A stretch of DNA of 50,274 bases from an uncultured cyanobacterium (GTDB lineage Bacteria > Cyanobacteriota > Cyanobacteriia > Cyanobacteriales > Microcystaceae), in the NCBI GenBank assembly GCA_903887375.1, contig CAISPN010000099.1:1-50274 (forward strand), given 5' to 3'. This document shows positions 13,885-28,692 of the stretch, one piece after another. The first letter of the stretch is position 1; each line of letters opens with the position of its first letter. The position numbers were made by a program, and so were the translations under genes. The notes beneath the pieces are model-generated. The model searched no databases. It was given only the letters and a program-made list of their open reading frames with translations, and was not told the DNA's origin.

Positions 13885-14009
13885 GCCATTACTTAGCATA
13901 TGAATTCTATCATGGCAATCTAAAAAATGAGTCTCTCGGGTTTGGCCTTTACAATTATTCTAAAAAACTTTAGAGTGAATATTTAATATCTCAAAGCAAA
14001 AGGAAAAAT

Positions 14010-15173
14010 GTGAGTATTGTTATCGGTCGGGGTAAGAACTCCCGTAGGGCCTATGGGATCGATGAAATTGCGCTTGTTCCCGGAGCGCGCACTTTAGATC
14101 CAAGCCTAGCGGATACTAGCTATAGTATTGGCTCAATCAAACGAGAAGTTCCTATAATTGCCAGCGCCATGGATGGTGTTGTAGATGTGCGCATGGCGGT
14201 TCTTCTCTCAGAATTAGGTTCAATGGGAGTTCTTAATTTAGAAGGTATTCAAACCCGCTATGAAGACACTAACCCCATCTTGGACAAGATTGCTTCTGTG
14301 GGGAAATCAGAATTTGTTAGCTTGATGCAGGCTCTCTACAGCGAACCTGTTAAATACGAATTAATCGAGCTAAGAATCAAAGAAATTAAGGAAAATGGCG
14401 GCATCGCTGCTGTCAGTTTGACTCCTTTAGGGGCTGCTAAATATGGCCAAATTGTAGCCCAAGCAGGTGCTGATATAGTATTTATTCAAGCTACAGTGGT
14501 CTCCACCAATCACCTTAGCCCTGATGGGATAGAATCTCTAAATTTAGCTCAATTCTGTCAGGAAATGCCCATACCCGTAGTGCTCGGCAACTGTGTGACA
14601 TATGAGGTCTCATTGGAGCTGATGAAGGCAGGGGCTGCTGCTATTTTAGTGGGCATAGGGCCTGGCGCTGCTTGTACTTCAAGAGGTGTTTTGGGAGTAG
14701 GAGTACCGCAAGCTACAGCTGTTGCTGATTGCGCCGCTGCCAGGGATGATTTTCATACAGAGACCGGTAAATATGTGCCAATAATCGCTGATGGTGGAAT
14801 TGTCACAGGCGGAGATATCTGCAAATGTATTGCCTGCGGCGCTGATGCCGTGATGATCGGTTCACCTATTGCCAGAGCTAAAGAGGCTCCTGGGCGAGGC
14901 TATCATTGGGGCATGGCTACCCCAAGTCCAGTTCTGCCCAGAGGAACTAGGATCAATGTAGGGACAACTGGCACTATTAAAGATATCCTCATAGGCCCAG
15001 CCAAGCTTGATGATGGCACTCATAATCTTTTAGGCGCTCTCAAGACAAGTATGGGGACATTGGGGGCTCAAACTATCAAGCAGATGCAACAGGTTGAGGT
15101 AGTGATCGCACCTTCATTGTTAACTGAGGGAAAAGTCTATCAAAAAGCTCAACAATTAGGTATGGGAAAATAG
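14010..15173 (+). CDS. guaB3: GuaB3 family IMP dehydrogenase-related protein
   Basis: The 387-residue protein is a TIM barrel of the IMPDH/GMP reductase superfamily without the CBS pair found in GuaB. It starts MSIVIGRGKNSRRAYGIDEI with GTG 14010, preceded by AAAAGGA. ASAMDGVVDVRMA and the catalytic-Cys loop GPGAACTSRGVLGVG are intact, then IADGGIVTGGDICKCIACGA and the flap MATPSPVLPRGTRINVG. This GuaB3 form is typical of cyanobacteria and actinobacteria; work in Synechocystis supports IMP dehydrogenase activity for it. It would convert IMP to XMP for guanine nucleotides. The 3' end overlaps truB by 18 nt tail to tail. Confidence 0.93.
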   Translation: MSIVIGRGKNSRRAYGIDEIALVPGARTLDPSLADTSYSIGSIKREVPIIASAMDGVVDVRMAVLLSELGSMGVLNLEGIQTRYEDTNPILDKIASVGKSEFVSLMQALYSEPVKYELIELRIKEIKENGGIAAVSLTPLGAAKYGQIVAQAGADIVFIQATVVSTNHLSPDGIESLNLAQFCQEMPIPVVLGNCVTYEVSLELMKAGAAAILVGIGPGAACTSRGVLGVGVPQATAVADCAAARDDFHTETGKYVPIIADGGIVTGGDICKCIACGADAVMIGSPIARAKEAPGRGYHWGMATPSPVLPRGTRINVGTTGTIKDILIGPAKLDDGTHNLLGALKTSMGTLGAQTIKQMQQVEVVIAPSLLTEGKVYQKAQQLGMGK

Positions 15174-16034
15174 AACAATTTTTGGTAAAAGCTGTAAATC
15201 TTCTATTGTTCCCATTCCTAGAAAATTATCATTGCTGTAAACTAGCACCCTCTCAGTTGGGGGTGTTTCTTTTAGTTCGATTTTTCTACCTATACAAAAA
15301 TCCTTCGCTAGCTCAGGTGATAATTCTATTTTGCTTAGATGTTTAAGGGCAACTTCTGGGCTAATCAGGGAAAATTCTCCCAGTTCAATTTTTCTAGAGA
15401 GCTCCTCAAGAGAGATACTTTCAGAAAGGTTAAATCCCCCACTTTCTAAGCGAACTAATCCAGCAAGTGTAGCGCCAGTATTTAAAGATTCACCTAAATC
15501 GCGGGCAATAGATCTAATATAGGTACCACTTCCACAGGTAATTTCTAGGCTTAATTGGGGATAATCTCCTTCTTGCCAATCTAAAATGTTAAGATCATGT
15601 ATACTAACTTGGCGCTCAGGCACGGTAAATATCTCTCCCCTGCGAGCTTTTTGATAGAGGCGCTCTCCACCAACTGAAATGGCGCTATAAGCTGGAGGGA
15701 TTTGCTGGATCAAGCCTTTAAATTGGTTTAGATGAGGCTCAATTATCTCTAAAGTGAGCTTGTTAGCTGGTCTTTGGGCAATGATTTCCCCTTCCAAATC
15801 ATCAGTACTTGTAACTAGTCCAAATTGAATCAGCGCTCTGTATTTTTTAGTATCTGGTAAATAATTAAGCAGACGAGTAGCACCACCTAGAGCAATACTC
15901 AATACTCCACTAGCTGCAGGGTCAAGAGTGCCACCGTGGCCTACTCTTTTGGTTTTGGTAAGCTTTCTGACTCTGTAAACGCAGTCATGTGAGGTGATTC
16001 CCTTTGGTTTATTGAGGTTAATGAACCCAATCAT
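15156..16034 (-). CDS. truB: tRNA pseudouridine(55) synthase
   Basis: I start at ATG 16034 ([20 protein letters not shown]), the conserved N terminus; the upstream ATG at 16049 adds five atypical residues. The product is 292 residues. The catalytic Asp lies in [20 protein letters not shown], and the substrate motif [20 protein letters not shown] and the [16 protein letters not shown] strand are present. It isomerises U55 in the T-loop of tRNAs. It overlaps the end of tsaD by 17 nt in the same direction, so the two tRNA-modification genes are translationally coupled. Confidence 0.95.
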
Positions 16035-17061
16035 ATAATTGCAAAACATCAGTGATTGCCATGCGAGAAGATACCCCCAAGGTTAAAGGCGAAATGCGCC
16101 CTCTAGAAAGGTGCTCTGCCCCGGCATAAGCAATCATAGCTGCATTGTCAGTGCATAAATCCAAAGGAGGAAAATACACCTCTAGAGAATGTTTTTGGGC
16201 AGATTGGGTTAATTGTTGACGCAATTGGCTATTAGCTGCAACTCCGCCGCCTATTACAATCTTAGTGAAATTTTGATCTAAAGCGCAGTTAATAGCTCTT
16301 TTGGTGAGTGAATGGGCAACTGTAAATTGAAAGCTTGCACAGAGATCTTCTACAGGTAAAGGATCTTCCAATTTTTGCACTAGTTTCAATACAGCCGTCT
16401 TAAGACCGCTAAAGCTCATATCATAGGGATGAAAGCCGCCATCAGGTAAAGAGATTTTTCCTTCAGGTAGCTTAAAAGATTGGGGATCGCCTTTTTTAGA
16501 GAGCCGATCGATTACTGGACCGCCAGGATAGCCCAAGCCCAATAAACGGGCAACTTTATCAAAGGCTTCTCCTGCTGCATCATCTCTGGTAGTACCTAAA
16601 AGCTGGTAATCTGCCCAATCTTTTACTGCAATCAAGCAGGTGTGTCCTCCTGAAACTAACAGGCAAAGAAAAGGAGGATTTAATTGAGGATGGGCCAAAC
16701 AACCAGCAAAAAGATGACCTTCGAGATGATGAATGCCTAAAAAAGGTAGCTTTTTAAGTAAAGATAGGGTCTTGGCCGCGCTCAAGCCAACTAGCAAAGA
16801 GCCGACCAGACCGGGAGCTGCTGTCGAGGCAATAGCATCTATCTCAGACCAATTGATACCTGATTGAGTCAGGGCTTGATCTAAGCATATATTTATTTGC
16901 TCTAGATGATTTCTAGATGCTAGCTCTGGAACTACTCCTCCATAGGGCTGATGGACCTTAATTTGAGATGAGATAATATTGCTTAAAATGGTTCGGCCTT
17001 TAACTATGGCAACTGAAGTCTCATCACAACTGGTTTCTATAGCCAATACGGTCTTGGTCAT
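16018..17061 (-). CDS. tsaD: tRNA N6-threonylcarbamoyladenosine transferase
   Basis: The 347-residue protein transfers the threonylcarbamoyl group to A37 of tRNAs that read ANN codons, with TsaB and TsaE. It begins [16 protein letters not shown] (ASKHA fold). The metal-binding histidines are in ASRNHLEQI and HHLEGHL, the nucleotide loop is [14 protein letters not shown], and [14 protein letters not shown] and [10 protein letters not shown] are near the C terminus. It precedes truB with an overlap and follows a small membrane protein gene by 6 nt, forming a three-gene set. Confidence 0.96.
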
Positions 17062-17067
17062 TAAGGA

Positions 17068-17328
17068 CTAATTTTGGGAAAATTGAACTGGAAGGGCAAA
17101 AGCGCTATAGACTTCAAGTAAACCAGCAACGCTAGCTGCCAATAAGCCTACTCTCAATAATAGGGCAATATCTGAATCAAAGCGACGCTTGGCTTTTTGC
17201 AGGTATACATATATGTTTAGAGCCCCCAACATAAAAAATAGAAGAGACAGGAGGCTCATTTTTTTCTGCCTTTTCTCTGGGGAAGACATTGACCAGGTTT
17301 GTTGATTTTCCACGGTTACTAACTCCAT
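17068..17328 (-). CDS. Small two-helix membrane protein of unknown function
   Basis: The 86-residue product has a charged N terminus, then two predicted membrane helices (about 25-43, SLLSLLFFMLGALNIYVYL, and about 57-77, LLLRVGLLAASVAGLLEVYS) separated by a basic loop KAKRRFDSD. I do not recognise a family. It lies 6 nt upstream of tsaD in the same direction, so co-transcription is likely. In other cyanobacteria tsaD often lies near photosystem I genes (psaF/psaJ), but this protein does not look like PsaF or PsaJ. Confidence 0.6.
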   Translation of the reverse strand: MELVTVENQQTWSMSSPEKRQKKMSLLSLLFFMLGALNIYVYLQKAKRRFDSDIALLLRVGLLAASVAGLLEVYSAFALPVQFSQN

Positions 17329-17424
17329 TTAAGATGGGGCAATTTGATAATCCATTAATTATTCTGGACTATAAAGCTTATGTTAACTCATATCAAGGAA
17401 AAAGTAAAGTATTGTAAACTTTGT

Positions 17425-17452
17425 TTGACATGATTGCATAAATACATATACA
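17425..17452 (+). promoter_or_regulatory. Candidate sigma-70 promoter for rfbB
   Basis: A perfect -35 TTGACA (17425-17430) is separated by 16 nt from TATACA (17447-17452). Transcription would start near 17459, leaving a leader of about 125 nt before rfbB. That leader contains the palindrome CTCCTAGGAG (17559-17568) and a 5-codon ORF (17571-17588) that overlaps the rfbB ATG. Confidence 0.45.
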
Positions 17453-17584
17453 AAAAACAGGGCTTCTTTTCCAAAAAGTATGTTTTTTTCGCATTATTTT
17501 TGTAAATCAATCCAAAAACCAGATCTCTCTAAGAGGTATAATTCCAATCAATGACCATCTCCTAGGAGCGATGTTACTTAAGTT

Positions 17585-18679
17585 ATGACTCAAGACGATA
17601 CAAGAAAAGCTAGACGTATTATTATCACAGGTGGGGCTGGCTTCATTGGTTCAAACTTTGTCCATCACTGGTCCAAAAATTATCCCGAAGATCGCATAAT
17701 TGTTCTTGATAGCCTTACCTATGCCGGCAATCGAGCAACTTTAAAAGATCTAGAAAATCTAGAGAATTTTCGCTTTGTCCATGGTGATATATGCGATCGC
17801 CCTTTGGTAGATGAACTTCTTAAGCAAGAGAATATAGACACTGTTGCCCATTTTGCTGCTGAATCACATGTGGATCGTTCTATATTGGGTCCTGGGGCTT
17901 TTGTACAAACCAATGTAGTAGGGACTTTTACTCTACTTGAATCTTTTCGCCAATATTGGCTCGAATCGGCAAAACCAGAACATCATCGTTTTTTACATGT
18001 TTCAACTGATGAGGTCTATGGCAGTCTTGAGCCCAATGATCCTCCTTTTAGTGAAACTACTCCTTATTCACCTAATAGTCCCTATTCTGCTTCTAAAGCT
18101 GGTAGTGATCACCTTGCCAGGGCCTACTATCATACCTACGGTATGCCGACAATCATCACTAACTGCTCTAACAACTATGGACCTTTCCATTTTCCTGAAA
18201 AACTGCTCCCCTTAATGATCATCAATATCCTATTGAGTAAACCTCTGCCAGTATATGGAGATGGTCAAAATGTCCGCGATTGGCTCTATGTTAAGGATCA
18301 TTGTCAGGCACTTGATCTAGTGATTCACAAGGGAACTCCTGGTCAAACTTATAATGTAGGTGGTAACAATGAGGTAAAAAATATAGACCTTGTTCATCTA
18401 CTTTGTAAACTAATGGATGAACTAGCTGGAGATTTACCAGTTAAACCGGCAGAAAGTTTGATTACTTTTGTCAAAGATCGTCCAGGACATGATCGTCGCT
18501 ATGCAATTGATGCCAGTAAAATAAGACATGAATTGGGCTGGGTTCCCCAGAAAACTGTAGAACAGGGAATCAGAGAAACCATATTATGGTATTTAGAAAA
18601 CCAACAGTGGTGGCGACCACTGCTATCTGCTGATTACCAAGCCTATTACGAAGCATCCTACGGTCAAAAGTTCACATGA
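17585..18679 (+). CDS. rfbB: dTDP-glucose 4,6-dehydratase
   Basis: The 364-residue short-chain dehydratase converts dTDP-glucose to dTDP-4-keto-6-deoxyglucose, the entry to L-rhamnose and other deoxysugars for surface polysaccharide. The NAD loop is ITGGAGFIGSNFVHHW, HFAAESHVDRSI and VSTDEVYG (catalytic Thr-Asp-Glu) follow, and the YSASKAGSDHLARAYYHTYG segment holds the Tyr/Lys pair. The C terminus (NQQWWRPLLS) is typical. The other rml genes are not adjacent. The stop overlaps the thrB ATG (ATGA), an odd partnership between a sugar gene and an amino-acid gene. Confidence 0.94.
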   Translation: MTQDDTRKARRIIITGGAGFIGSNFVHHWSKNYPEDRIIVLDSLTYAGNRATLKDLENLENFRFVHGDICDRPLVDELLKQENIDTVAHFAAESHVDRSILGPGAFVQTNVVGTFTLLESFRQYWLESAKPEHHRFLHVSTDEVYGSLEPNDPPFSETTPYSPNSPYSASKAGSDHLARAYYHTYGMPTIITNCSNNYGPFHFPEKLLPLMIINILLSKPLPVYGDGQNVRDWLYVKDHCQALDLVIHKGTPGQTYNVGGNNEVKNIDLVHLLCKLMDELAGDLPVKPAESLITFVKDRPGHDRRYAIDASKIRHELGWVPQKTVEQGIRETILWYLENQQWWRPLLSADYQAYYEASYGQKFT

Positions 18680-19584
18680 AGCAAGTCACAGTTAAAGTTC
18701 CAGCAACTACTGCCAATATAGGTCCTGGTTTTGATTGTCTGGGAGCGGCTCTATCTCTTTACAATCGCTTTAAATTCACCCCAGCCGAAGAGAATACCAT
18801 TGAGATTACTGGCTCTCAATCACAAGGCGTTTTTTTAGATCTATCGCCAAACAATCTGCTCTACCATTCTTTCCTCAAGCTCTATAGGCATATTGATCAC
18901 TTTGCCCCAACAGTCAAAATATCGGTAGAGATTAATGTTCCTCTAGCTAGGGGTTTAGGCAGTTCTGCTACTGCAATTGTAGGAGGGCTTTTAGCTGGTA
19001 ATGCCATGGCCGGCAATCCATTGACTCCTAAAGAAATTAGAAATTTGGCAATTTCTATTGAAGGTCATCCAGATAATGTTGTCCCAACATTACTTGGCAA
19101 TTGTCAACTTTCGGTTGGCGGTGATGGTAATTGGCAAATTAGCCAAATTGACTGGCATAGCGATGTTATACCCATTCTGGCTATTCCTGAATTTAAACTC
19201 TCTACCGAGAAAGCCAGAGCAGTTTTACCAAGCCAATATTCTCGCCAAGATGCCATATTTAACATGAGTCATATTGCTCTTTTAATTAAGGGCTTGGAAA
19301 GCGCTAACCCTAAATGGTTAAAAGAAGCCCTGCAAGATCGCCTTCATCAACCTTATCGACAATCATTAATCCAGGGTTATGAAAATGTCTATAACGCCGC
19401 AATAGAAGCTAAGGCCCATGGCCTTGTGATCTCTGGAGCTGGCCCTACTTTGTTAGCTCTAGCTTCTCCTAGTTACAGCGATAATGTAGCTAAATCAATT
19501 GAGCAAGCCTGGCTCAGCCAAGGAGTGAAATCTCAGGTATTGACTCTAGCTATTGACCGTGAGGGAGCTAAGATTGAATCTTAG
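18676..19584 (+). CDS. thrB: Homoserine kinase
   Basis: The 302-residue GHMP kinase phosphorylates L-homoserine on the way to threonine. It begins VKVPATTANIGPGFDCLGAA, and the ATP loop is PLARGLGSSATAIVGGLLAG. IEGHPDNVVPTLLGNCQLS and the C-terminal ISGAGPTLLALA complete the family pattern. It overlaps rfbB by 4 nt and is probably translated by coupling to it. Its 3' end overlaps the DUF3493 gene on the other strand by 17 nt. Confidence 0.95.
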   Translation: MKQVTVKVPATTANIGPGFDCLGAALSLYNRFKFTPAEENTIEITGSQSQGVFLDLSPNNLLYHSFLKLYRHIDHFAPTVKISVEINVPLARGLGSSATAIVGGLLAGNAMAGNPLTPKEIRNLAISIEGHPDNVVPTLLGNCQLSVGGDGNWQISQIDWHSDVIPILAIPEFKLSTEKARAVLPSQYSRQDAIFNMSHIALLIKGLESANPKWLKEALQDRLHQPYRQSLIQGYENVYNAAIEAKAHGLVISGAGPTLLALASPSYSDNVAKSIEQAWLSQGVKSQVLTLAIDREGAKIES

Positions 19585-19819
19585 GGCGATCTTTGCTGAT
19601 TAACCAAATCATCAAGCTCATCACTCCTATTTGTAAAAAGAAATTGGGAATAGCTTCTTGTACATCACTTCCTGAGATGATTTTCACCAGAAAAACTATA
19701 GCCCCAATCAAGCCAGAACTACCAAGTGCTACATAGATAAACCAGCGAAAATAACGATATGGAGCTTTAGCCTCAGCGCGCAGCCTATCGTAGGGTCTGG
19801 GTTGTTTGGGTGATTGCAT
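19568..19819 (-). CDS. DUF3493 family protein (LPA1/Rep27-like membrane protein)
   Basis: The 83-residue protein starts PRPYDRLRAEAKAPYRYFRW and has two hydrophobic helices (about 26-46 and 55-73). This pattern is the DUF3493 domain, restricted to cyanobacteria and plastids; the plant proteins carrying it (Rep27/LPA1) assist photosystem II assembly and repair. A related thylakoid role here is inferred from family only. It is the last conserved gene before the tRNA breakpoint of the accessory island. Confidence 0.8.
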   Translation of the reverse strand: MQSPKQPRPYDRLRAEAKAPYRYFRWFIYVALGSSGLIGAIVFLVKIISGSDVQEAIPNFFLQIGVMSLMIWLISKDRPKIQS

Positions 19820-19858
19820 AAAGATATTTTTTTGATTTACTATTATATTTTAAAGCTT

Positions 19859-19895
19859 GCCGGTGTAGCTCAGGGGTAGAGCATTCGATTCGTAA
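19859..19895 (+). pseudogene. 5' half of tRNA-Thr(CGU), truncated in the anticodon loop
   Basis: The 37 nt contain the acceptor 5' strand GCCGGTG, TA, a D-arm GCTC-AGGGGTA-GAGC, then the anticodon 5' stem TTCGA and the loop TTCGTAA with anticodon CGT. Everything 3' of the loop is missing: the next bases are Uma2 coding sequence on the other strand, and I find no matching 3' half (TCGAA..., T-loop, CACCGGC) within the window. This is a broken tRNA gene marking the left boundary of the accessory island. The junction is ambiguous over a short A-run (about 19894-19899). ACG codons could still be read by a UGU tRNA. Confidence 0.8.
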
Positions 19896-19896
19896 A

Positions 19897-20216
19897 AAAT
19901 CAGGCAGGACATCTTCACCTGATAGTTCAGTAGGATTTTCCAATAGTTCTACTACTTGTCCTTTTCTATAGATTTCTACTTGATTATCTTGAGGATTAAT
20001 CAACCAACCCAAGAGAGCACCGTTATCGATATACTCTTGCATCTTCTCTCTGAGAGTATCTAAATTATCAGAAGGAGAACGCAACTCGACTACAAACTCT
20101 GGTGTAACCTGAGCAAAACCGCTTTTTTATTGAGTTGATAGAGAATCCCAAAGCTTGCGCGAAACCCAAGAAGCATCAGGAGAATTGTTTGGGCGATTTA
20201 AACTAGGAGCATAACC
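19897..20216 (-). pseudogene. Uma2 family (PD-(D/E)xK) nuclease, decayed copy 1
   Basis: On the minus strand the Uma2 core is readable: NRPNNSPDASWVSRKLWDSL (catalytic Asp in SPDASW), then an in-frame TAA at 20127-20129, then the continuation SGFAQVTPEFVVELRSPSDN with the ELRSPSD active-site strand, EYIDNGALLGWLINPQDNQV and ENPTELSGEDVLP. It is damaged three ways: the N terminus is missing, the TAA interrupts it, and the C terminus runs into the broken tRNA at about 19897. Uma2 genes are abundant and often decayed in cyanobacteria; their physiological role is unclear. Confidence 0.75.
19901..19940. repeat. 40-bp direct repeat, copy 1 (Uma2 C-terminal region)
   Basis: This matches 20941-20980 at 39 of 40 positions (C/G difference at 19928/20968). 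It encodes the NPTELSGEDVLP part of Uma2 on the minus strand. The two copies flank the toxin-antitoxin genes. Confidence 0.9.
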
Positions 20217-20289
20217 TTAAGTTTTGCCAACAATTTATTTAGGTGGCACAATATGAATATTATGACACTTCATAAAAACAATAGCAGAT

Positions 20290-20526
20290 ATGAAATTACG
20301 TGTCGGTGAGCAAGGGAGAATGGTAATTCCTTCAGACCTTCGTAAGCAGCTAGGGATAGATGTAGGAACTGAATTAGTAGCAAGGGTTGAAGGTGAATGC
20401 TTAATTTTAGAAACCCGTAAAGCGGTTTTGAATCGGCTCAAGAAGCTTTTTGCGCAAATTCCATCTGAGATCAGTATGGTTGATGAGCTGATTCTCGAAC
20501 GTCGTAAAGAGGCTGAAATTGAGTAA
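20290..20526 (+). CDS. AbrB/MazE-like (SpoVT-AbrB fold) antitoxin
   Basis: The 78-residue protein has an N-terminal swapped-hairpin DNA-binding domain with MKLRVGEQGRMVIPSDLRKQ, LGIDVGTELVARVEGECLIL, and a C-terminal helical tail (about 45-78) that would bind the toxin. The start is ATG 20290, and a weak GAGCAAGG-type purine stretch occurs only inside the gene, so the upstream RBS is poor. The stop overlaps the PIN toxin start by 8 nt, the usual arrangement for a VapBC pair with an AbrB-type antitoxin. It should repress its own operon and neutralise the toxin. Confidence 0.88.
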   Translation: MKLRVGEQGRMVIPSDLRKQLGIDVGTELVARVEGECLILETRKAVLNRLKKLFAQIPSEISMVDELILERRKEAEIE

Positions 20527-20899
20527 GTATATTTTAGATGCCTCAGCATTACTGGCTTCTTTACATAATGAGACAGGTTCAGAAATTGTAGATCTTCTTT
20601 TGTCAGAGTCCGCAATTTCTACAATAAACCTATCTGAGGTTATTCAAAAAGCTAGGCAAAGAAAAATCCCTACAGATCAAGTGGTCACTGGATTACAGCT
20701 ATTAGGTGTAGAGATAGTTGATTTTACTTTTGAACAGGCTGAGACAACAGCAGAATTATGGACAATAACTAAACCACTTGGATTATCATTGGCAGACCGT
20801 GCTTGTTTAGCATTGGCGAAAATACGAAATGCAGTGGCAGTCACTGGAGATAAAAGCTGGGCAGAAATCCAGGGCATATCTGTAAAGGTTATTAGATGA
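20519..20899 (+). CDS. PIN domain ribonuclease toxin (VapC-like)
   Basis: The 126-residue toxin starts with TTG 20519 inside the antitoxin gene. The acidic Mg-binding residues of the PIN fold are present: Asp in ILDASALLA, Glu in INLSEVIQKA, Asp in LSLADRACLALAK and Asp in AVTGDKSWAEI. VapC toxins cleave RNA, commonly tRNA or rRNA. All active-site residues and the reading frame are intact even though the surrounding sequence is decayed, suggesting the pair is still maintained. It lies between the two Uma2 fragments and upstream of the transposon-like end. Confidence 0.9.
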   Translation: MSKYILDASALLASLHNETGSEIVDLLLSESAISTINLSEVIQKARQRKIPTDQVVTGLQLLGVEIVDFTFEQAETTAELWTITKPLGLSLADRACLALAKIRNAVAVTGDKSWAEIQGISVKVIR

Positions 20900-20905
20900 A
20901 GCTAA

Positions 20906-21006
20906 TTAACCTATAACTCTTTTCAAATCCAGAGAGAAACCAGGCAGGACATCTTCACCTGATAGTTGAGTAGGATTTTCTAGGATTTCTACTGCTTATT
21001 CCTTTC
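20906..21006 (-). pseudogene. Uma2 family nuclease, C-terminal remnant (copy 2)
   Basis: On the minus strand this reads VEILENPTQLSGEDVLPGF followed by SLDLKRVIG and a normal stop (TAA at 20906-20908), the ordinary Uma2 C terminus. Upstream an in-frame TAA occurs at 20996-20998 and similarity disappears beyond about 21006. It is a second gene copy rather than the other half of copy 1, because the two share the ENPT(E/Q)LSGEDVLP stretch. Confidence 0.7.
20941..20980. repeat. 40-bp direct repeat, copy 2 (Uma2 C-terminal region)
   Basis: This is the partner of 19901-19940, 1,040 bp away in the same orientation, 39 of 40 identical. It could have mediated recombination, with the toxin-antitoxin genes between the copies. 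Confidence 0.9.
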
Positions 21007-21106
21007 TGATTAGTGTCTTTAGTTTTTCACCACCTGAAAACTCGCTTTGTTAAAACCCTTACTAAAAGGGCGTTTTAAAATCTTCCTTTGCCAGTGGGGA
21101 AAACTT

Positions 21107-21306
21107 CCTGACACTACCCTGAATGTGGGATTAAAATTAGTCGTAAAGTGTCAGGTCAACATATAAAGCTTTTTTAAACACGACACCTAATTTGGCTCCA
21201 TACAAACTAACCTTTAATTGTGCAAAATGGCTGTAACTTATATGAGCAGTTGATTACAGCCGATGACAGTAATCTGTCGTCACGTCATTTAATGTGGCAC
21301 TGTACA
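21107..21306 (+). mobile_element. Candidate Tn7-like / type V-K CAST transposon end
   Basis: The stretch ends CACTGTACA with TGTACA at 21301-21306, the terminal hexamer of TnsB-type transposons of the V-K CAST group. Just inside are an imperfect inverted pair GATGACAG/CTGTCGTC (21262-21279), containing the TGTCGTC/TGACA motifs of V-K TnsB sites, and GTCATTTAATGTGGCAC. Further inside are ACGACACCTAATTTGG (21180-21195), TAGTCGTAAAGTGTCAGG (21138-21155) and a facing CCTGACACT (21107-21115), which look like more TnsB-like sites. From memory the outer 45 bp closely resemble the ends of ShCAST. No tns or cas12k gene is present in the window, so this is an orphan end. The region 21006-21106 also holds a hairpin AAAACCCTT...AAGGGCGTTTT. 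Confidence 0.6.
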
Positions 21307-21626
21307 ATATAAAATTACGAATTAAATTCTCCTTTCAATCACTCTGTGTTTTTGATTGGTGATTTAGCTGGTTAAGGTTTATTTGAATTTTATATCGTAT
21401 TTAATCAATTCAATCAGAAAATCAAACAATCCCCTATTAGAATTACTATTACAGGTAAAATTATTAACCTGACTCAGATAAACAGTTCTTAAATAAATGA
21501 TTTGATTACAACAAATTCTAAGAATTCGGAGAAGATCTAAAAGAAGAGATTCGAAATATTTTCAATAAAGATATTTGCAATCTTTTACTGTAAATTAATA
21601 CTTTTGTAAAATTGGAAGAGGCAATT
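21307..21626. other. AT-rich intergenic stretch outside the transposon-like end
   Basis: This 320-nt gap lies between the TGTACA end and the lmo0937-like gene. I see no ORF of useful length, no RNA gene and no strong hairpin. The five bases after the end are ATATA and would be the target duplication if the other end were known. Confidence 0.5.
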
Positions 21627-21779
21627 ATGTTTGATCTCGCTTGGTCTATTATTGTTGTACTTTTTATCCTGTGGTTGATAGGATTCTCAATTCACATTGG
21701 AGGCGGCTTAATCCACCTGCTTTTGGTTTTAGTGCTTATTGGCATTGTCTACAACCTATTTACGAAACGAAGCATCTAA
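21627..21779 (+). CDS. lmo0937 family (DUF5670) small membrane protein
   Basis: This 50-residue ORF begins ATG 21627 with the purine stretch GGAAGAGG 7 nt upstream. It reads MFDLAWSIIVVLFILWLIGF, then a glycine-rich turn (HIGGGLIHLLLVLVLIG), and ends in a basic tail FTKRSI. Two closely spaced membrane helices with a central GGG-x-IH turn are the lmo0937 family pattern. These tiny proteins are widespread and often stress-linked; their function is unknown. A clear terminator follows at 21821-21858. A CsbD stress protein gene lies opposite. Confidence 0.8.
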   Translation: MFDLAWSIIVVLFILWLIGFSIHIGGGLIHLLLVLVLIGIVYNLFTKRSI

Positions 21780-21820
21780 TATAAAAGCGACTTTTGTATT
21801 AAATCAATTTTCAATAATTA

Positions 21821-21858
21821 GGTAGCTCATTAGCATTAACTAACAAGCTACCTTTTTT
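21821..21858 (+). terminator. Rho-independent terminator
   Basis: The arms GGTAGCT (21821-21827) and AGCTACC (21846-21852) pair perfectly, the loop contains a smaller TTAG...CTAA stem, and TTTTTT follows. It ends the lmo0937-like transcript; read from the other strand it lies just beyond the csbD gene. Confidence 0.8.
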
Positions 21859-21913
21859 ACTGCCAAAGCATTATAATCTTTGCTAGACAATCTTTCTAGC
21901 TCACTTGTCGCCC

Positions 21914-22102
21914 CTACAGGGCATCAAGAGTATCCTTGGACTTATCCTTTGCTTTTTCAACTGTCTGCTGAATTTTAGCTTGGGTTTGCTTGGCTTCGCC
22001 TTTAATTTTATCTTCTGTATTTCCAGTCATTTCTCCGTATGCTGATTGTAATTTACCTTCAACATTTTTAGCTGCTGCTTCTATTTTATCTTTAGCGTTC
22101 AT
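21914..22102 (-). CDS. CsbD family stress protein
   Basis: The 62-residue hydrophilic protein MNAKDKIEAAAKNVEGKLQS continues with AYGEMTGNTEDKIKGEAKQT and a Lys/Gln-rich helical tail. This is the CsbD-like domain (AKxVxGKxxExxGxxTGDxxxxxKGxxxQ). Family members are induced by general stress and nutrient limitation; no activity is known. It is preceded on its strand by a plausible RBS (CAGAGGTTA). It is convergent with the lmo0937-like gene. Confidence 0.88.
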   Translation of the reverse strand: MNAKDKIEAAAKNVEGKLQSAYGEMTGNTEDKIKGEAKQTQAKIQQTVEKAKDKSKDTLDAL

Positions 22103-22246
22103 AATTAACCTCTGTGTTGACTTACTATCCTCAGCATATCCAGTTGATGTTGCAGTTCATGTATAGGAGAGAGTTTGAGTTATCTTAGTTAATTATTGAA
22201 TCTACAGCAAAAACCCAAGATATAATTGTTAATAAACCAAAAAATC

Positions 22247-23206
22247 ATGTCATCAACAGTAAGTCTCCTGAGAGCAAACTCATATAATCTAAAATCTCTA
22301 AGAATCTCTATTGAGAATCTTCTAGAACCATTAGGGGGCATAGATTCTTTTGTTAAAAGAGGAGATCGGGTTTTACTCAAGCCCAATCTGTTAACAGCAG
22401 GTAATCCAGGGAAAGAATGCATTACCAGAGCTGAGATTCTGCATTGTGTGGCATCTCTGGTCTTAGAAGCTGGTGGCAAACCCTTTTTGGGGGATAGCCC
22501 AGCTTTTGGCAGTGCAAAAGGAGTGGCTAAAGCCAATGGTTATCTCCCTATGCTAGAGCAGTTAAATTTACCAATAGTTGAATTCCATGGAAAAAGCTAT
22601 GGCATAGACAATAAAGATTTCAATAATCTGAGACTTTCTAAAGAAGCCATGGAGGCAGATGTAGTGATTAATTTGCCCAAAGTAAAGTCACATATGCAAC
22701 TGACAATAACTTTGGGGGTTAAAAACCTTTTTGGCTGTGTTCCTGGAAAAATGAAAGCCTGGTGGCATATGGAAGCTGGCAAAGACAGCGAGCGCTTTGG
22801 CAAAATGTTGGTAGAAACTGCAAAGGCAATCGCTCCAGATTTGACCATCATAGATGGAATTATTGGTCATCAAGGCAATGGACCTAGTAATGGTGAACCT
22901 AGATTTCTCGGCGTTCTGGCAGCCTCTAGAGATGTTTTTGCGCTTGATTTAACGATGGCTGAAATTTTAGCAGTCAATCCTGATTTAGTCCCTACAATAG
23001 TTGCCCAAAAGGAATTAGGTTTAATTGGTGATATTGCCCAAATTGAATTTCCCTTGAGTCATCCTCGAGAGCTTTATGTTAGCGATTGGCAATTACCCAC
23101 TGCCATGATACCTATAGATTTCGGATTACCTCGGGTATTGCGCTCTACTTTTAAACACCTTTATATTCGCATAGTTAAAGAACCTCTAGAATCTTCTACA
23201 AATTAG
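22247..23206 (+). CDS. DUF362 domain protein
   Basis: I start at ATG 22247 (MSSTVSLLRANSYNLKSLRI), giving 319 residues; the upstream TTG adds seven unlikely residues. The DUF362 domain is shown by GDRVLLKPNLLTAGNPGKEC, AGGKPFLGDSPAFGS, VVINLPKVKSHMQLTITLGV then KNLFGCVPGKMKAWWHM, and DGIIGHQGNGPSNGEPRFLG. Many DUF362 proteins carry a ferredoxin-like Fe-S domain; I see no CxxCxxC cluster motif here, so this is the domain alone. The enzymatic role is unknown. Confidence 0.85.
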   Translation: MSSTVSLLRANSYNLKSLRISIENLLEPLGGIDSFVKRGDRVLLKPNLLTAGNPGKECITRAEILHCVASLVLEAGGKPFLGDSPAFGSAKGVAKANGYLPMLEQLNLPIVEFHGKSYGIDNKDFNNLRLSKEAMEADVVINLPKVKSHMQLTITLGVKNLFGCVPGKMKAWWHMEAGKDSERFGKMLVETAKAIAPDLTIIDGIIGHQGNGPSNGEPRFLGVLAASRDVFALDLTMAEILAVNPDLVPTIVAQKELGLIGDIAQIEFPLSHPRELYVSDWQLPTAMIPIDFGLPRVLRSTFKHLYIRIVKEPLESSTN

Positions 23207-23311
23207 CCAAAATTAAGAGAATATTGTTTTTTGGTTAATTTTAAAAAAAGTAGTTACAATTGTGCTTAATAGAGCGATATAACCTCGAGAGGTTGATTGA
23301 CTACTGAATTT

Positions 23312-23509
23312 ATGGAAGTACCTGAGCGAGAGAGCAATCCCCCTATCGGCAGATGGGCTAGTTTTCTGGGAACGTTCGTTGCAATGTTGACTTTGGTGTT
23401 ACCTGTAGTGGCTATCTCCTGTTTTTCATCTTCTGAACTTAGAGAAACTTCCAACAAGGTAATGATTTTAGGGGATAGCTCAAATGGTATGATTTTGGGA
23501 AAACCTTAA
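23312..23509 (+). CDS. Small single-pass membrane protein of unknown function
   Basis: ATG 23312 gives 65 residues (MEVPERESNPPIGRWASFLG...), with one hydrophobic helix at about 20-38 (FVAMLTLVLPVVAISCF) and a polar tail. I do not recognise it. It lies 21 nt upstream of the pyrophosphatase start in the same direction, so they may be co-transcribed. A 14-bp hairpin sequence AACCTC-GA-GAGGTT (23281-23294) sits just upstream, without a T-run. Confidence 0.5.
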   Translation: MEVPERESNPPIGRWASFLGTFVAMLTLVLPVVAISCFSSSELRETSNKVMILGDSSNGMILGKP

Positions 23510-23530
23510 AGACCATTGGGGAGAAATTTT

Positions 23531-24040
23531 GTGGATCTATCACGTATTCCAGCACAGCCAAAGCCTGGATTAATTAATGTATTAATTGAGATTCCAGCAG
23601 GTAGTCGCAATAAATATGAGTTTGACAAGGACATCAATGCTTTTGCACTTGATCGTGTACTTTATTCATCTGTAAATTATCCTTATGACTATGGTTTTAT
23701 TCCCAATACCTTAGCCGATGATGGAGATCCTCTAGATGGAGTGGTAATAATGGATCAGCCGACTTTTCCTGGTTGCGTTATAGCTGCTCGCCCTGTGGGA
23801 ATGTTGGAAATGGTAGATGGGGGAGATAGAGATGAAAAAATTCTCTGTGTTCCAGATAAAGATCCCCGCTATAGTCATGTTAAATCTCTCAAAGATATAG
23901 CCCCGCATCGCTTAGATGAAATTTCTGAGTTTTTCAAAACCTATAAAAATCTTGAGAAAAAAGTTACTGAAATTTTAGGTTGGCGCGATGTGGATGCCGT
24001 TTTGCCCTTAGTTGAGCAATGTATTAAAGCTTACAAATAG
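23531..24040 (+). CDS. ppa: Inorganic pyrophosphatase (family I, soluble)
   Basis: GTG 23531 with GGGGAG 7 nt upstream gives 169 residues, the usual length; the TTG at 23516 lies before that ribosome-binding site. The active-site motifs are present: [35 protein letters not shown] and [10 protein letters not shown] (the D-x-D-P-x-D signature), then DKDPRYSH and the acidic Mg ligands. The hexameric enzyme hydrolyses pyrophosphate from biosynthetic reactions. It is followed 19 nt later by ndhM, which has its own good RBS. Confidence 0.95.
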
Positions 24041-24059
24041 TAACTAAAGGAGAACTCCT

Positions 24060-24416
24060 ATGCTTTTAAAATCGACCACTCGTCATGTGCATATATTCAC
24101 CGCAGAGGTTAGCAATAATGAATTTGTCCCCAGTGAGAAAATGTTGACCTTGGATATCGATCCAGATAATGAATTTAACTGGTCTGATGAAGCTCTCCAG
24201 AAGGTCTACAGAAAATTTGATGAGCTGGTGGAATCATATGATGGTGAAGATTTGACAGAGTATAATTTGAGGAAAATAGGCTCTGATCTCGAGCATATGA
24301 TCCGCTCTCTTTTGGAAAATGGGGCTATTTCTTACAATTTGGGTTCAAGAGTTCTTAACTATAGTATGGGGTTACCCAAGCTTGAGAGTCCTGAGACCGA
24401 AGGGAAGTACAGATGA
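24060..24416 (+). CDS. ndhM: NAD(P)H-quinone oxidoreductase subunit M
   Basis: The 118-residue protein begins LLKSTTRHVHIFTAEVSNNE, with TLDIDPDNEFNWSDEALQKV, FDELVESYDGEDLTEYNLRK and SRVLNYSMGLP, all strongly conserved in cyanobacterial and chloroplast NdhM. It is a peripheral, oxygenic-photosynthesis-specific subunit of NDH-1 on the cytoplasmic (stromal) side of the thylakoid membrane, needed for respiration and cyclic electron flow. Its presence is good evidence for a photosynthetic cyanobacterium. An AAAGGAGAACTCCT Shine-Dalgarno region precedes the ATG. Confidence 0.95.
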   Translation: MLLKSTTRHVHIFTAEVSNNEFVPSEKMLTLDIDPDNEFNWSDEALQKVYRKFDELVESYDGEDLTEYNLRKIGSDLEHMIRSLLENGAISYNLGSRVLNYSMGLPKLESPETEGKYR

Positions 24417-24442
24417 GTGATTTCAAGATTTAAAAAGGTTTA

Positions 24443-26245
24443 ATGGAGAATTTTTCTGGCACGCTCCAATGTTTTTCTGAGGTGTGTCAAGCATTTAACC
24501 ACTTGAATTGCAAAATTTGTCATCGCTGTGGCTTGCCATTAGTTAAACGTTATCTTTGGGCTAGCAATAATTCTAGGTTTGTATTTAATACTGGAGAGTT
24601 AATAGCCCAAAGGTATATTTCTCGGGGTTCTAACGTATTTTTAGATACGATGCCCAAAATGTTACCAGAGCCCGTAGAAAACTTACCACGCTCTATACAG
24701 CCTTATTTGAAGCTATCCCATATTCTTCCACATATACCCCAAGTATTTGGCAAGCTAAGCAATGATGAAGATATTTGGCTATTGGAATATGGGACAGTCC
24801 CAATTGGATCTGATGGTGAACCAGTTTACTTGGAGCTTTTACCCACAATAGAGCAGCTATGGACCCAATCATCGCCTTTGCAGCAGATATCTTGGTTACT
24901 ACAGTTAACTAGATTATGGGAGCCTCTAAATAGCCAAGGAGTATTATCTACATTGCTCCACCCAAATCTTTTGAGGGTCAATGGTGATTTTGTCCAGCTT
25001 CTAGAGCTTAATTATGACCATACAAAGATTGTTAGCTTGGAAGATCTTGGCAAGGTTTGGCTTGGCTGGGTAGATGGAGCATCTTTATCAATCAAGACAT
25101 TTCTCTATGACCTCTGTCAAAAACTCGAGAATAGAGAGATTACTCAGATAGCAAATTTGCTACCTATACTCGAAAATGCCCAAAGGGAGATTTCTAGTCT
25201 CTATCACTGGTCTTATAGTCTCCATATTTTGAGTGATCAAGGGCCAAGTCGTGAGCAAAATGAGGATTGCTGTTATCCTCCAAGTGGAACTCTCTTGAAC
25301 TCAACGGAAACAGAGGACTTGTTAACCTTAGTCTGTGATGGTATCGGCGGGCAAGATTCAGGGGAAATAGCTTCCCAAATGGCCATAGACTCTTTGAAAA
25401 CTTTACCTGAATCTCTGACTCCAACAGATAATATTTATCAGGCTACCAAGAAAGCTATTTTTAAAGCTAACGATCTGATCTGCCAGCGTAATGATCGAGA
25501 GATGCGCTCCCAAAGACAACGCATGGGAACTACTTTGATGATGGGTCTGGTCAAATCAAATAATATTTATCTAGCCAATGTAGGAGATTCCAGGGTTTAT
25601 TGGATTACTCAAGATAGTTGCTTAAGACTTAGCGTGGATGATGATGTAGCTTCTCGCTCAGTCAAACTTGGCCTCTCTCTCTATAGAGAAGCTTTAGATG
25701 TTGTAAATTCTGGTGCATTAACTCAAGCTTTAGGCACAACTCCCTCATCTGAACTTTACCCAAATCTCCAGCGGCAACTTCCGAACCAAGACTGTATAAT
25801 ACTTTTAACCTCCGATGGTTTAAGTGACTATGATAGAATCGAGCAGTATTGGCAACCTGAATTGTTACCTTTGCTCAGAGCTGAAAAAGAACTAGCCCAA
25901 GTTGGAAAGAATCTAGTAAGCCTAGCTAATCTAAAAAATGGACATGATAATACTACTATTGCTTTAATTCTCTGCAGACTAAGTCAAAATCAAGATCTTA
26001 AAGACTTTAACTTGACTATTTCCACAATTGAACATTCAATCTTGCACCAGAATGATAAACCAAGGCAAAATAGAACCAAGCCAATAACAACGCCAGTGAA
26101 CAAAAAAAACAACAATAAAATTCATCGCTTGATCTGGCTTGCTGGGGCTTTTGTATTACTAGGGGCTGGATATTGGTATTTTCTCTCTAACAATTATTCT
26201 TCTAGACAAGAGACAACAAATACCTCTAAAATTCAAACACAATAG
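24443..26245 (+). CDS. PP2C family protein serine/threonine phosphatase with zinc-ribbon start and membrane anchor
   Basis: The 600-residue protein starts with a Cys-rich ribbon (QCFSEVCQAFNHLNCKICHR, then CG). A middle domain (about 50-250) looks like the kinase-like or pseudo-kinase scaffold seen in cyanobacterial regulators. The PP2C domain occupies about 265-520 with SDQGPSREQNEDC, VCDGIGGQDSGEIAS, MGTTLMMGL, ANVGDSRVYWI, LTSDGLSDY and HDNTTIALI, covering the metal-binding Asp residues. A membrane helix near 568-586 is followed by a short tail. It would remove phosphate from Ser/Thr; partners are unknown. It follows ndhM by 26 nt. Confidence 0.88.
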   Translation: MENFSGTLQCFSEVCQAFNHLNCKICHRCGLPLVKRYLWASNNSRFVFNTGELIAQRYISRGSNVFLDTMPKMLPEPVENLPRSIQPYLKLSHILPHIPQVFGKLSNDEDIWLLEYGTVPIGSDGEPVYLELLPTIEQLWTQSSPLQQISWLLQLTRLWEPLNSQGVLSTLLHPNLLRVNGDFVQLLELNYDHTKIVSLEDLGKVWLGWVDGASLSIKTFLYDLCQKLENREITQIANLLPILENAQREISSLYHWSYSLHILSDQGPSREQNEDCCYPPSGTLLNSTETEDLLTLVCDGIGGQDSGEIASQMAIDSLKTLPESLTPTDNIYQATKKAIFKANDLICQRNDREMRSQRQRMGTTLMMGLVKSNNIYLANVGDSRVYWITQDSCLRLSVDDDVASRSVKLGLSLYREALDVVNSGALTQALGTTPSSELYPNLQRQLPNQDCIILLTSDGLSDYDRIEQYWQPELLPLLRAEKELAQVGKNLVSLANLKNGHDNTTIALILCRLSQNQDLKDFNLTISTIEHSILHQNDKPRQNRTKPITTPVNKKNNNKIHRLIWLAGAFVLLGAGYWYFLSNNYSSRQETTNTSKIQTQ

Positions 26246-26312
26246 TTTTTAATATAAACTTGTGTAGAATATTGGGCGATATTATTTTTAGACAAAAAAC
26301 AAATTTCATTAT

Positions 26313-27086
26313 ATGCCACAAGAATCAGAATCATCAAAACTGCCAGGAATCACTCGTTACAAGGGCTTTGTTCTATCAGAAGGAATTGAGAGAAGGGGGG
26401 TTGAGCTACTTCGCAACATAGGCTATATCTTGCTGGGACTATTTTTGGTGGATTTTTTAGGTACATTGATTCCACCACATTTATTTGATCCCATATGGGA
26501 GCTTGGGATAGTCAACTCATTAGTAGATAGGTCTTGGCTTGCCTTGCTGGGGTTTGGTCTCATCTTTTTCTATAAGATAGATACTCAACTTAAGCGTGGT
26601 TTTTTGAGAGTGATTTACTACCTGTCTTGGGCCTCTTTGATTTTATCTATTTTTTATTTTTTACTTTTTCCTTTAACTATGTTTGATGGTTTTAAGATAC
26701 TTAATAGATATAAAACCGATAGTACTATTGCCATTGCATCATCTCAAGCCAAAGCTGAGCAAATAAGGGCTCGAATAAACCTTTCTAATTCACCTCAGCA
26801 GATTGCCTCTTTTATCCAAACACTTAATCCTCAAAAGTTATTAATAGACCAACCAAACCTTCAGCAACTTAAGGAACAAGCTAATAAAGAATTAGATATT
26901 GCCAAGAAAGATTATGCCAGTATTACTAATAGCCAAACAAGGGCTAAATCAATCCAGTTAGGTAAATCTTCCGTTAGGGCGGCATTGGGAACAGTTATTA
27001 GTGGCTTTGGCTTGGGTCTTATTTGGAGATCGACCAGATGGGTTAGAGTTTTATTCAAAAAGAATCCTGGCAAAAGTGATGATTAA
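26313..27086 (+). CDS. HpsJ-like protein, cyanoexosortase-associated
   Basis: The 257-residue protein has a soluble start, four predicted membrane helices within about 32-135 (RNIGYILLGLFLVDFLGTLI and onward), a coiled-coil Gln/Asn-rich region (about 145-215, QQIASFIQTLNPQKLLIDQP), and a last hydrophobic helix before the basic end. This is the layout of HpsJ-type proteins, which accompany cyanoexosortases and are linked to hormogonium polysaccharide in filamentous cyanobacteria. Its stop overlaps the exosortase start (ATGATTAA), so the two are translationally coupled. I infer the exosortase-A type from the neighbour. Confidence 0.75.
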   Translation: MPQESESSKLPGITRYKGFVLSEGIERRGVELLRNIGYILLGLFLVDFLGTLIPPHLFDPIWELGIVNSLVDRSWLALLGFGLIFFYKIDTQLKRGFLRVIYYLSWASLILSIFYFLLFPLTMFDGFKILNRYKTDSTIAIASSQAKAEQIRARINLSNSPQQIASFIQTLNPQKLLIDQPNLQQLKEQANKELDIAKKDYASITNSQTRAKSIQLGKSSVRAALGTVISGFGLGLIWRSTRWVRVLFKKNPGKSDD

Positions 27087-28692
27087 GCTTAAAAGCTCAT
27101 TAGAGCAATCTAAAGTTTCCAAAGAATACCTTGGGCTACTGACAAATCAAAAATTTTATCTTTTATTGATTGCTGTTTGTCTAGCTATATTACATTTTCT
27201 TGTAGCTTGGAAGTTCTCTGGAGTTGATATTAAGACTAATCGTCTATTGCCTACCGATTTGGTGTCCTTTGAGCTTCCTTTCTGGGCTACAATAATTTTG
27301 ATCTGCTGGCAAAGTCGTAATCTGGCTTTTTCCAAAAACAGTATTTGGCAAACCTACATAGCTTTGGGACTTTTAGCTTTTATACTAGTTAGATTTCTGT
27401 CTATTAGTTGGCTAGATGTAGATTTTTTTATATTGGGAGCTTATTTGTTGGCTTTTGTTTTTGCCTTGCTTTCAGTCGAATGGCAAAAACTTCCTTCATA
27501 TTGGATCTATGCCCTTTACTTGATTTTTATGGTGATACCCACCAATTCCCCTCTGTTTAATGAGTGGATCCATATTGATAAAATTACTGCGGCAGTTGCT
27601 GCTTTCATACTGCATTATTTGGGAAAAGAAGTGTCTTTCAGCGGTGCCAATTTAACCCTACCTACTGGAAGTGTGAGGGTTAGCTATATATGTGCTGGGG
27701 GCCCACTGACATTGATTCTTCTCAAGGTTACATTGCTGATGACCTTAATATATCCTTTGACTTTGAAAAGAAAAATATCATTGGCCTTAGGAGCTATAGC
27801 TGTAGGTTTTGGTCTGGGTTTTTTACGTGTAGCTTTTTTAGCGACAGTAGTTAACAATTCTAAGGTTTTTCACTATTGGCATGGCTCTCAAGGAGGACAG
27901 TTTTTCTTATCAGCTGCAACTTTAGGCTTTGTTTTAATTTGTAGTTGGCTAATTCCCTTAGAAGAGAATCAAAAATCAACTTCTCTTCTGTCTTCAGTTT
28001 TTGGGCAAGCCAAAGCTAGTAAAAACAGGCTGCAAAGTCTGATTATAGCTACAGGTCTTATTTTGCTCTCATCACTGTATATGTTTTTTGTTTCAGCTCC
28101 AATTCAAGGGCTCAAGGCAGATGCAGCAAAATTAGGTGATTTAGCCGTCAATAATTGGCAATTAGTCAGCACCAAAAATATAGAGACTCCAAAACTAGAT
28201 GTTACACCCCATTTTGAGGCTATGCTCTCTGGTCAGAAAGCACATTATGTTCAAGGCCAAGAGAATCTTGATTTAGAACGCTACTATGTAGTAAATACTG
28301 GCCAAAATCAAATGAGTAATTGGCTAAATTATTTAACAAATTTCAGTAAAGATATTCAAAAGAATATTCATCAGAATAAAGATGGTTATTATATTTTGAC
28401 TAATGATCAAAAGCAAGCTAATTTAATCAGCTGTCTCAATGCTGATGGCAGTAGCACTGTAACCCAAGAACAATTTAACCAAAATCATCAGAACTCTTAC
28501 TTTGCATTTAACAAAATAGTACCTTGGCTTCTAGGTCAAACTCTTCTGCAAGATGATCGTTGTATTTGGGTCAAACTATCTACCCCAGTTGAAAATGCTG
28601 ATAAAGAAAAAGCCGACCAACTTCTTGAATCAGTTTGGTCAGCTAATTATCCTAATTGGTCTAGCTATCTAAGTAAAAATAAAATAATTTAG
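27079..28692 (+). CDS. crtA: Cyanoexosortase A fused to its system-associated protein domain
   Basis: ATG 27079 overlaps the HpsJ-like stop by 8 nt and gives 537 residues. Residues about 20-315 are a multi-pass exosortase: SYICAGGPLT carries the catalytic Cys, GFLRVAFLATVVN the Arg, and FHYWHGSQGGQFF the His. After a further helix (about 320-345) a soluble, non-membrane domain begins (LGDLAVNNWQLVSTKNIETP, and DDRCIWVKLSTPVENAD), which resembles the separate cyanoexosortase A-associated protein that is normally its own gene. The enzyme should cut PEP-CTERM proteins after the PEP motif; substrates in this window are at 0.9 kb and 49-50 kb. The 3' end overlaps typA by 4 nt on the opposite strand. 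Confidence 0.82.
   Translation: MIKLKSSLEQSKVSKEYLGLLTNQKFYLLLIAVCLAILHFLVAWKFSGVDIKTNRLLPTDLVSFELPFWATIILICWQSRNLAFSKNSIWQTYIALGLLAFILVRFLSISWLDVDFFILGAYLLAFVFALLSVEWQKLPSYWIYALYLIFMVIPTNSPLFNEWIHIDKITAAVAAFILHYLGKEVSFSGANLTLPTGSVRVSYICAGGPLTLILLKVTLLMTLIYPLTLKRKISLALGAIAVGFGLGFLRVAFLATVVNNSKVFHYWHGSQGGQFFLSAATLGFVLICSWLIPLEENQKSTSLLSSVFGQAKASKNRLQSLIIATGLILLSSLYMFFVSAPIQGLKADAAKLGDLAVNNWQLVSTKNIETPKLDVTPHFEAMLSGQKAHYVQGQENLDLERYYVVNTGQNQMSNWLNYLTNFSKDIQKNIHQNKDGYYILTNDQKQANLISCLNADGSSTVTQEQFNQNHQNSYFAFNKIVPWLLGQTLLQDDRCIWVKLSTPVENADKEKADQLLESVWSANYPNWSSYLSKNKII

Follow-up and report, generated by a model that had tools for sequence, protein, structure and literature searches.

A tRNA-Thr(CGU) gene broken in its anticodon loop as the probable wreck of a V-K CAST attachment site in a Microcystaceae genome

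Genomic islands that use a tyrosine integrase are found at tRNA genes, where the crossover often falls in the anticodon loop, so that the tRNA is restored and an orphan 3' half is left. V-K CASTs also meet tRNA genes, and they are generally regarded as safe for the host since they land beside them. In the cyanobacterial V-K CASTs with an anchor (homing) spacer described in PMC9938897, which cites Saito et al. 2021, the attachment tRNA points at the element, the PAM is GTN and a 17-nt anchor spacer follows a truncated repeat (R*), the layout being truncated repeat, anchor spacer and anchor protospacer. According to PMC11406308, V-K elements mostly target tRNA genes and form cointegrates. Among the papers listed by literature searches on Cas12k or CAST together with tRNA, the titles and the opening parts of the abstracts mention no broken attachment tRNA.

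The window analysed here is a stretch of 50,274 nt from the draft genome of an uncultured Microcystaceae cyanobacterium (G000; 2.93 Mb in 124 contigs, 99.99% complete according to the tool figure). It contains a locus resembling these anchor-spacer elements (PMC9938897) in several respects, namely a tRNA pointing at the element, a GTN PAM and a truncated repeat with a 17-nt anchor spacer, and it shares with V-K CASTs the TGTACA-type ends and the right-end sequence. Unlike them, the locus was found without a left end, tracrRNA, cas12k or tns genes; its attachment tRNA is itself broken, and the anchor relic is placed beyond the right end that remains. Remnants in Coleofasciculus MAGs (loci L141 and L197) are similar in that a CAST end at the same tRNA is soon followed by ordinary ORFs, as judged by eye from ORF lists, but these have kept the left end and an intact tRNA. 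With the tyrosine-integrase islands the locus has in common the presence of mobile DNA at a tRNA gene; however, a 5' half is left in the window and not an orphan 3' half, and no integrase was recognised by eye among the ORFs of 14000-30000.

Positions 19859-19895 of the window correspond to raw positions 1-37 of tRNA-Thr(CGU), i.e. the 5' or first half of the gene. The tRNA starts at G19859 and raw tRNA position n is thus window position 19858+n. The features on both sides of the break are as follows.

19568-19819, minus strand: DUF3493 gene, the divergent neighbour marking the locus (PF11998, E 4.9e-25); it adjoins tRNA-Thr(CGU) in relatives
19859-19895, plus strand: 5' half of tRNA-Thr(CGU), raw 1-37, identical to the intact G002 gene; the last A or two may belong to either side of the junction
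19876-19878, plus strand: GTA in the D-loop, the GTN PAM of the anchor protospacer; the spacers of L197 and L202 start right after it
19879-19895, plus strand: 17-nt anchor protospacer, tRNA raw 21-37, ending at the break; register taken from L197 and L202 and from 10 of 21 tRNA-matching spacers at other tRNAs
19896-20183, minus strand: Uma2 gene remnant whose C-terminal end is cut at the tRNA junction (PF05685; the alignment to the copies on contigs C31 and C100 starts at 19895)

All 37 nt of the half are identical to the intact tRNA-Thr(CGU) found at the orthologous place in a congener (G002), and the same DUF3493 and thrB genes flank the tRNA locus in G000, in G002 and in a further congener, G001. 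The break in the anticodon loop reported in the preliminary description is real: the gene stops after raw position 35, 36 or 37 (canonical 36-38), the exact bond being ambiguous because both partners can supply A's to a six-A run at the junction. Past this point Uma2 sequence follows directly, as had also been noticed (PF05685, E 1.3e-13), and three further Uma2 copies, 84-89% identical over 135-265 bp, are present in G000. ARAGORN and Rfam found no tRNA in the window, and hence no complete cloverleaf that could represent a functional tRNA-Thr(CGU). The possibility of a 3' half placed elsewhere had been raised at the outset. None was found in the window, where a 35-nt stretch with at least 21 matches was looked for, or with a genome-wide pattern allowing up to 3 mismatches, which tolerates little change in the T-stem and which a diverged copy could escape.

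To count the tRNA-Thr genes of the genome, as had been proposed, we ran a tRNA model on G000 (40 places, with 150 of 178 candidates scored) and ARAGORN, which reads 39 distinct tRNAs. The tRNA-Thr genes recovered are Thr(UGU), which is intact, and Thr(GGU); an intact Thr(CGU) is absent from these 39 tRNAs, a list that is incomplete since it has no tRNA-Ile. An additional pattern directed at the 5' part had only two matches in G000, taken as the half and the Thr(UGU) gene. The ACG share of Thr codons amounts to 4.5% in G000 loci (n=930), 5.8% in G001 (n=257) and 7.4% in G002 (n=163), and it ranges from 11.5 to 15% in three other sets, all of them small samples. It is plausible that tRNA-Thr(CGU) is dispensable in G000, ACG codons being rare and readable by tRNA-Thr(UGU). 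Elsewhere in the genome, a 3-kb contig (C8:365-548, L044) carries tRNA-Asn and tRNA-Tyr genes ending in CCA in addition to other Asn and Tyr genes, and this contig may be phage DNA.

The earlier proposal that a tRNA gene served as V-K CAST target holds for this very tRNA in relatives, as judged by CAST-type ends and anchor spacers. V-K CAST-type ends lie directly after an intact tRNA-Thr(CGU) in L141, L157 (=G019), L181, L197 and L202, and similar ends come after tRNA-Thr(CGU) in L209 and L128. An inverted repeat-spacer unit near the left end matches the tRNA in L197, L202 and L157. The anchor spacers of L197 and L202 match raw 21-37 at 15 and 13 of 17 positions, respectively, with GTA as PAM, and that of L157 matches raw 29-46 exactly, with GTT as PAM; two of the three anchor spacers read at this tRNA are thus directed to positions 21-37. 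An order-wide tracrRNA scan gave matches in 56 of 291 genomes. Thirty loci were read, 21 of which have a 17-nt spacer to a nearby tRNA (at most 2 mismatches) and nine do not. In ten of these 21, the spacer match begins behind a D-loop GTA or GTT and reaches into the anticodon loop or to a position next to it (tRNA-Lys in L233, Val in L241, Met in L236, Pro in L243, L249, L252 and L253, Phe in L248, L257 and L259). A repeat-based scan returned the same 21 loci plus L260, whose anchor spacer (ATGGGGCAAATTGAGAA) has a target that does not look like a tRNA and lies upstream of a TGTCGA-type end.

How widespread the break is was followed in the family and in the order. In the family set, matches came from 44 of 50 genomes, of which 30 yielded loci with the DUF3493 gene, and ARAGORN finds tRNA-Thr(CGU) in 27 of the 30. 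The three others are G000, G001 and L120, a 2,021-bp locus in which the regular expression for the 5' half also finds nothing. Within the best 80 of 147 related loci from named genomes, 41 match this expression, including three that are tRNA-Thr(GGU) (L139, L150, L185) and one that is the broken copy of G001 itself (L132). In the order scan of 388 genomes, the 5'-half pattern matches 276 and a longer pattern 296, both patterns also matching other tRNAs such as Thr(UGU) and Thr(GGU). Per-genome counts of the half and full patterns, compared by eye among the matches listed, flagged G000, G001, G004 and G102. G004 proved not to be a broken case, its tRNA being an intact variant, and G102 has an extra match with a CAT anticodon. 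With two cases recognised among the 388 genomes, the break is a rare one and, in what was surveyed, is limited to this genus. In another locus (L163, from a UBA8803 MAG, about 1475-1600 of the reverse complement), a degenerate tRNA 5' half (GCTGGTGTAGCTCAATGGTAGAGCATTGAATCCCTAA...) stands directly before an intact tRNA-Thr(CGU).

Further to the right, the window contains the following features.

20290-20526, plus strand: AbrB/MazE-type antitoxin gene, probable CAST cargo (PF04014, E 1.2e-9)
20519-20899, plus strand: PIN-domain toxin gene, probable CAST cargo (PF01850, E 1.7e-14)
20903-21007, minus strand: second Uma2 fragment, a C-terminal piece (alignment to C31 2887-2991)
21110-21306, plus strand: CAST right-end region with terminus TGTACA at 21301-21306, the element lying to the left (last 60 nt compared with L261; inner limit approximate, set by eye)
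21315-21331, minus strand: anchor spacer relic GAGAATTTAATTCGTAA, 14/17 to tRNA raw 21-37
21332-21347, minus strand: truncated repeat ACAGAGTGATTGAAAG, directly preceding the anchor spacer; compare the GGATTGAAAG-type ends in relatives
21385-21800, no strand assigned: chromosomal DNA common to G001 contig C75, with gaps (alignment by sequence comparison; left limit approximate)

The end at 21306 matches the right end of L261, a complete element and the sole complete right end used as a reference, at 46 of 60 nt in an ungapped comparison, versus 19-27 of 60 nt for ten left ends; we therefore read it as the tnsB-side end in its normal orientation, terminated by TGTACA as in V-K CASTs. The combination of truncated repeat and 17-nt anchor to a tRNA behind a GTN PAM (here GTA) is found as well, though outside the right end, the repeat-spacer relic (21315-21347) beginning 8 nt beyond its terminus. 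The relic spacer and the tRNA itself are the two 17-mers that the scan of the window reports with up to 3 mismatches. The repeat-plus-spacer motif gave eight matches in G000, the relic alone with 2 mismatches and the other seven with 3, and the reversed control gave two. The relic is best read as coming from a second, older insertion. If it represents an older tandem CAST, the left end of the latter vanished precisely, with 8 nt to the right end and no left end between. The DNA from about 21385 onwards has another left neighbour on contig C75 of G001. A hairpin-like stretch at about 21110-21160 was considered as a crRNA and rejected; part of it (21140-21168) recurs in G001 beside other DNA and, compared by eye with L261, seems to read as inner right-end sequence. 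The motif GTCGTAAAGTGTCA(A/G)GTCAACATATAAA of window 21140-21167 recurs in G001 on C117 (L213) and C73 (L214), one of these recurrences adjoining tRNA-Pro(CGG), which is a V-K anchor target in other genomes.

The other CAST parts were looked for and did not appear. No left-end motif is present in 19851-21400, and the same scan found it in 7 of 7 control loci; at the distance of 46-82 nt from the PAM, where V-K CASTs have their left end, none was found, the tRNA half being joined to Uma2. No ORF for cas12k, tnsB, tnsC or tniQ was seen by eye in the ORF list between the tRNA half and 21306, and a DNA query from G019 gave no tracrRNA match in G000. The ORF that occupies the tnsB position in L261 begins about 300 bp in from the right end (gene names by position, following PMC9938897); at this place the window has Uma2 and no such ORF.

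The congener G001 has a second break. On its contig CAIPYC010000045.1 the tRNA is cut after TTCGTA (raw 35-36), within 1-2 nt of the G000 bond, and is followed by different, unrelated DNA. The 1,464 bp that remain after this break contain no right-end, anchor or left-end motif, and a repeat located about 210 bp past it recurs near the start of several other G001 contigs. By our own reading of the translation the flank looks IS66-like; Pfam gave nothing for a 36-aa piece of it. A 21/35 match to the tRNA 3' half (L085 3489-3523) was judged to be chance and lies inside a 180-aa open reading frame, and anchor-motif matches on C195 and C129 were rejected, there being no repeat in front of them. The half is changed at 3 of 36 positions relative to the intact G002 gene in G001 and at 0 of 36 in G000, and third positions of thrB show 42 of 300 changes specific to G000 and 50 of 300 specific to G001. 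Had the half been broken since the species split, about five neutral changes would be expected in G000, and finding zero would have a probability below 1%, assuming no other constraint. The two breaks are probably independent, because the G000 half is undecayed where about five changes are expected and that of G001 has three. The PAM place of the half tRNA in G001 (L085 2314-2316) reads CTA and not GTA, which would abolish the anchor target. Measured from the PAM-distal edge of the anchor protospacer, both breaks are no more than 1-2 nt away. What is new here is a break at this edge, with that of G001 within 1-2 nt of it and probably of independent origin; that both stop there may be due to chance, to selection on a DUF3493 promoter or to an effect of the R-loop.

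Repeated CAST insertion, decay and deletion is the most economical account of the locus, and we give a probability of about 0.6 to its being the wreck of a V-K CAST attachment site, in which a deletion from the anticodon loop into the CAST cargo took the tRNA 3' half, the left end and the core. CASTs would have taken the D-loop/anticodon part of tRNA-Thr(CGU) (PAM GTA, protospacer raw 21-37) as landing mark, with insertion immediately behind the gene, which stayed intact. One element or more would have decayed to its right end and cargo (Uma2, the AbrB/PIN toxin-antitoxin pair, Uma2), and a second, older insertion would have left the anchor repeat-spacer beyond the right end. A deletion would then have fused tRNA 35-37 to Uma2, with loss of the tRNA 3' half, the left end and the CRISPR/Cas12k/Tns core, and the loss of the tRNA would have been tolerated owing to the reading of ACG by tRNA-Thr(UGU). 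Such a deletion had been suggested from the start, and the attachment site in relatives, the right end, the anchor relic and the lack of left end, 3' half and core before 21306 all speak for it. The event itself we infer, because an empty-site allele sharing the right flank of the window did not turn up: the comparison proposed in the preliminary description did not yield one, other DNA following the intact tRNA in G002 and the right flank of the window lying elsewhere in G001. No intermediate allele was found either. Two observations go against the account. An older CAST in tandem would be expected to begin with about 140 bp of left end, and an extra deletion must be assumed because the relic sits 8 nt from the right end without it. 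Moreover, a single private deletion is not the whole story, since the G001 break falls within 1-2 nt of this one and the 1,464 bp that follow it show no CAST motif, and two breaks so close to each other are not predicted by plain deletion.

Another explanation could be an ordinary deletion bounded by the neighbouring gene, with a breakpoint in which the CAST has no role. With the divergent DUF3493 gene starting 40 bp to the left, the tRNA 5' half may contain the promoter of this gene, and selection would act against any deletion extending further in that direction, which would explain the similar length of tRNA kept in two lineages; the short A-run overlap at the G000 junction also fits microhomology joining. 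However, no sigma-70-like promoter was found in 19780-20000, where 0.9 is expected by chance, and the G001 half does not appear strongly constrained because three of its 36 positions have changed, and we consider this explanation unlikely. We find it distinctly unlikely that the anchor directed the breakage, i.e. that the 17-bp Cas12k R-loop, or a collision of a fork or of transcription with it, caused a double-strand break at the PAM-distal edge, the broken end being rejoined to other DNA, and that this happened separately in two species. The coincidence of positions is in its favour, with breaks after raw 35-37 in G000 and raw 35-36 in G001 and a protospacer ending at raw 37, as are the apparent independence of the breaks (no change in G000 versus about five predicted, three in G001) and a chance of about 0.002, calculated after the fact, of two breaks uniform over 72 nt both falling within 1 nt of the edge. 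Yet the nuclease domains of Cas12k are naturally inactivated (PMC9938897), the 1,464 bp next to the G001 break lack any motif of an anchor or of either CAST end, the two breaks recognised by eye among 388 genomes belong to one genus, and the position is also simply the anticodon loop. Taken as a general rule, the idea that RNA-guided homing damages its own landing site, with a fragile R-loop edge and attachment tRNAs repeatedly cut after their first 36-37 nt, strikes us as quite improbable; the G000 half keeps the PAM and the whole 17-nt target.

Recombination between spacer and protospacer, which form inverted 17-bp repeats, could have flipped the segment between them and split the tRNA. The tRNA and the relic do share ATTCGTAA in inverted orientation, and both are interrupted right after it, and we favoured this inversion for a while; it was dropped when the end at 21306 turned out to be an ordinarily oriented right end and not a flipped left end. 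The 3' half, which should stay beside the relic, is absent there, leaving the inversion a very small probability. An assembly chimera could be suspected in a draft of 124 contigs at a junction with Uma2, a repeated family, but the sequence common to both sides of the junction is limited to a few A's, the other Uma2 copies, at 84-89% identity, are not identical to this one, and G001, which comes from a separate public assembly, shows the break at the same place, so we regard such an artefact as hardly credible. Finally, the break at canonical 37/38 coincides with the usual site of tRNA introns, and an intron-interrupted or trans-split tRNA could be envisaged. The chance of this is close to negligible: Rfam, searched up to E 1, matched neither window 19780-21700 nor the G001 flank, the 3' half was seen neither in the window nor by the genome-wide pattern (up to 3 mismatches), and the G001 half has changed at three positions.

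In two related species the attachment gene itself is gone, broken at the edge of the 17-nt stretch matched by the guide. The locus offers a natural case for asking whether RNA-guided homing carries a cost at its target, and a case for how cyanobacteria shed a redundant tRNA. In addition, the anchor relic outside the right end may show how to read successive insertions at one attachment site.
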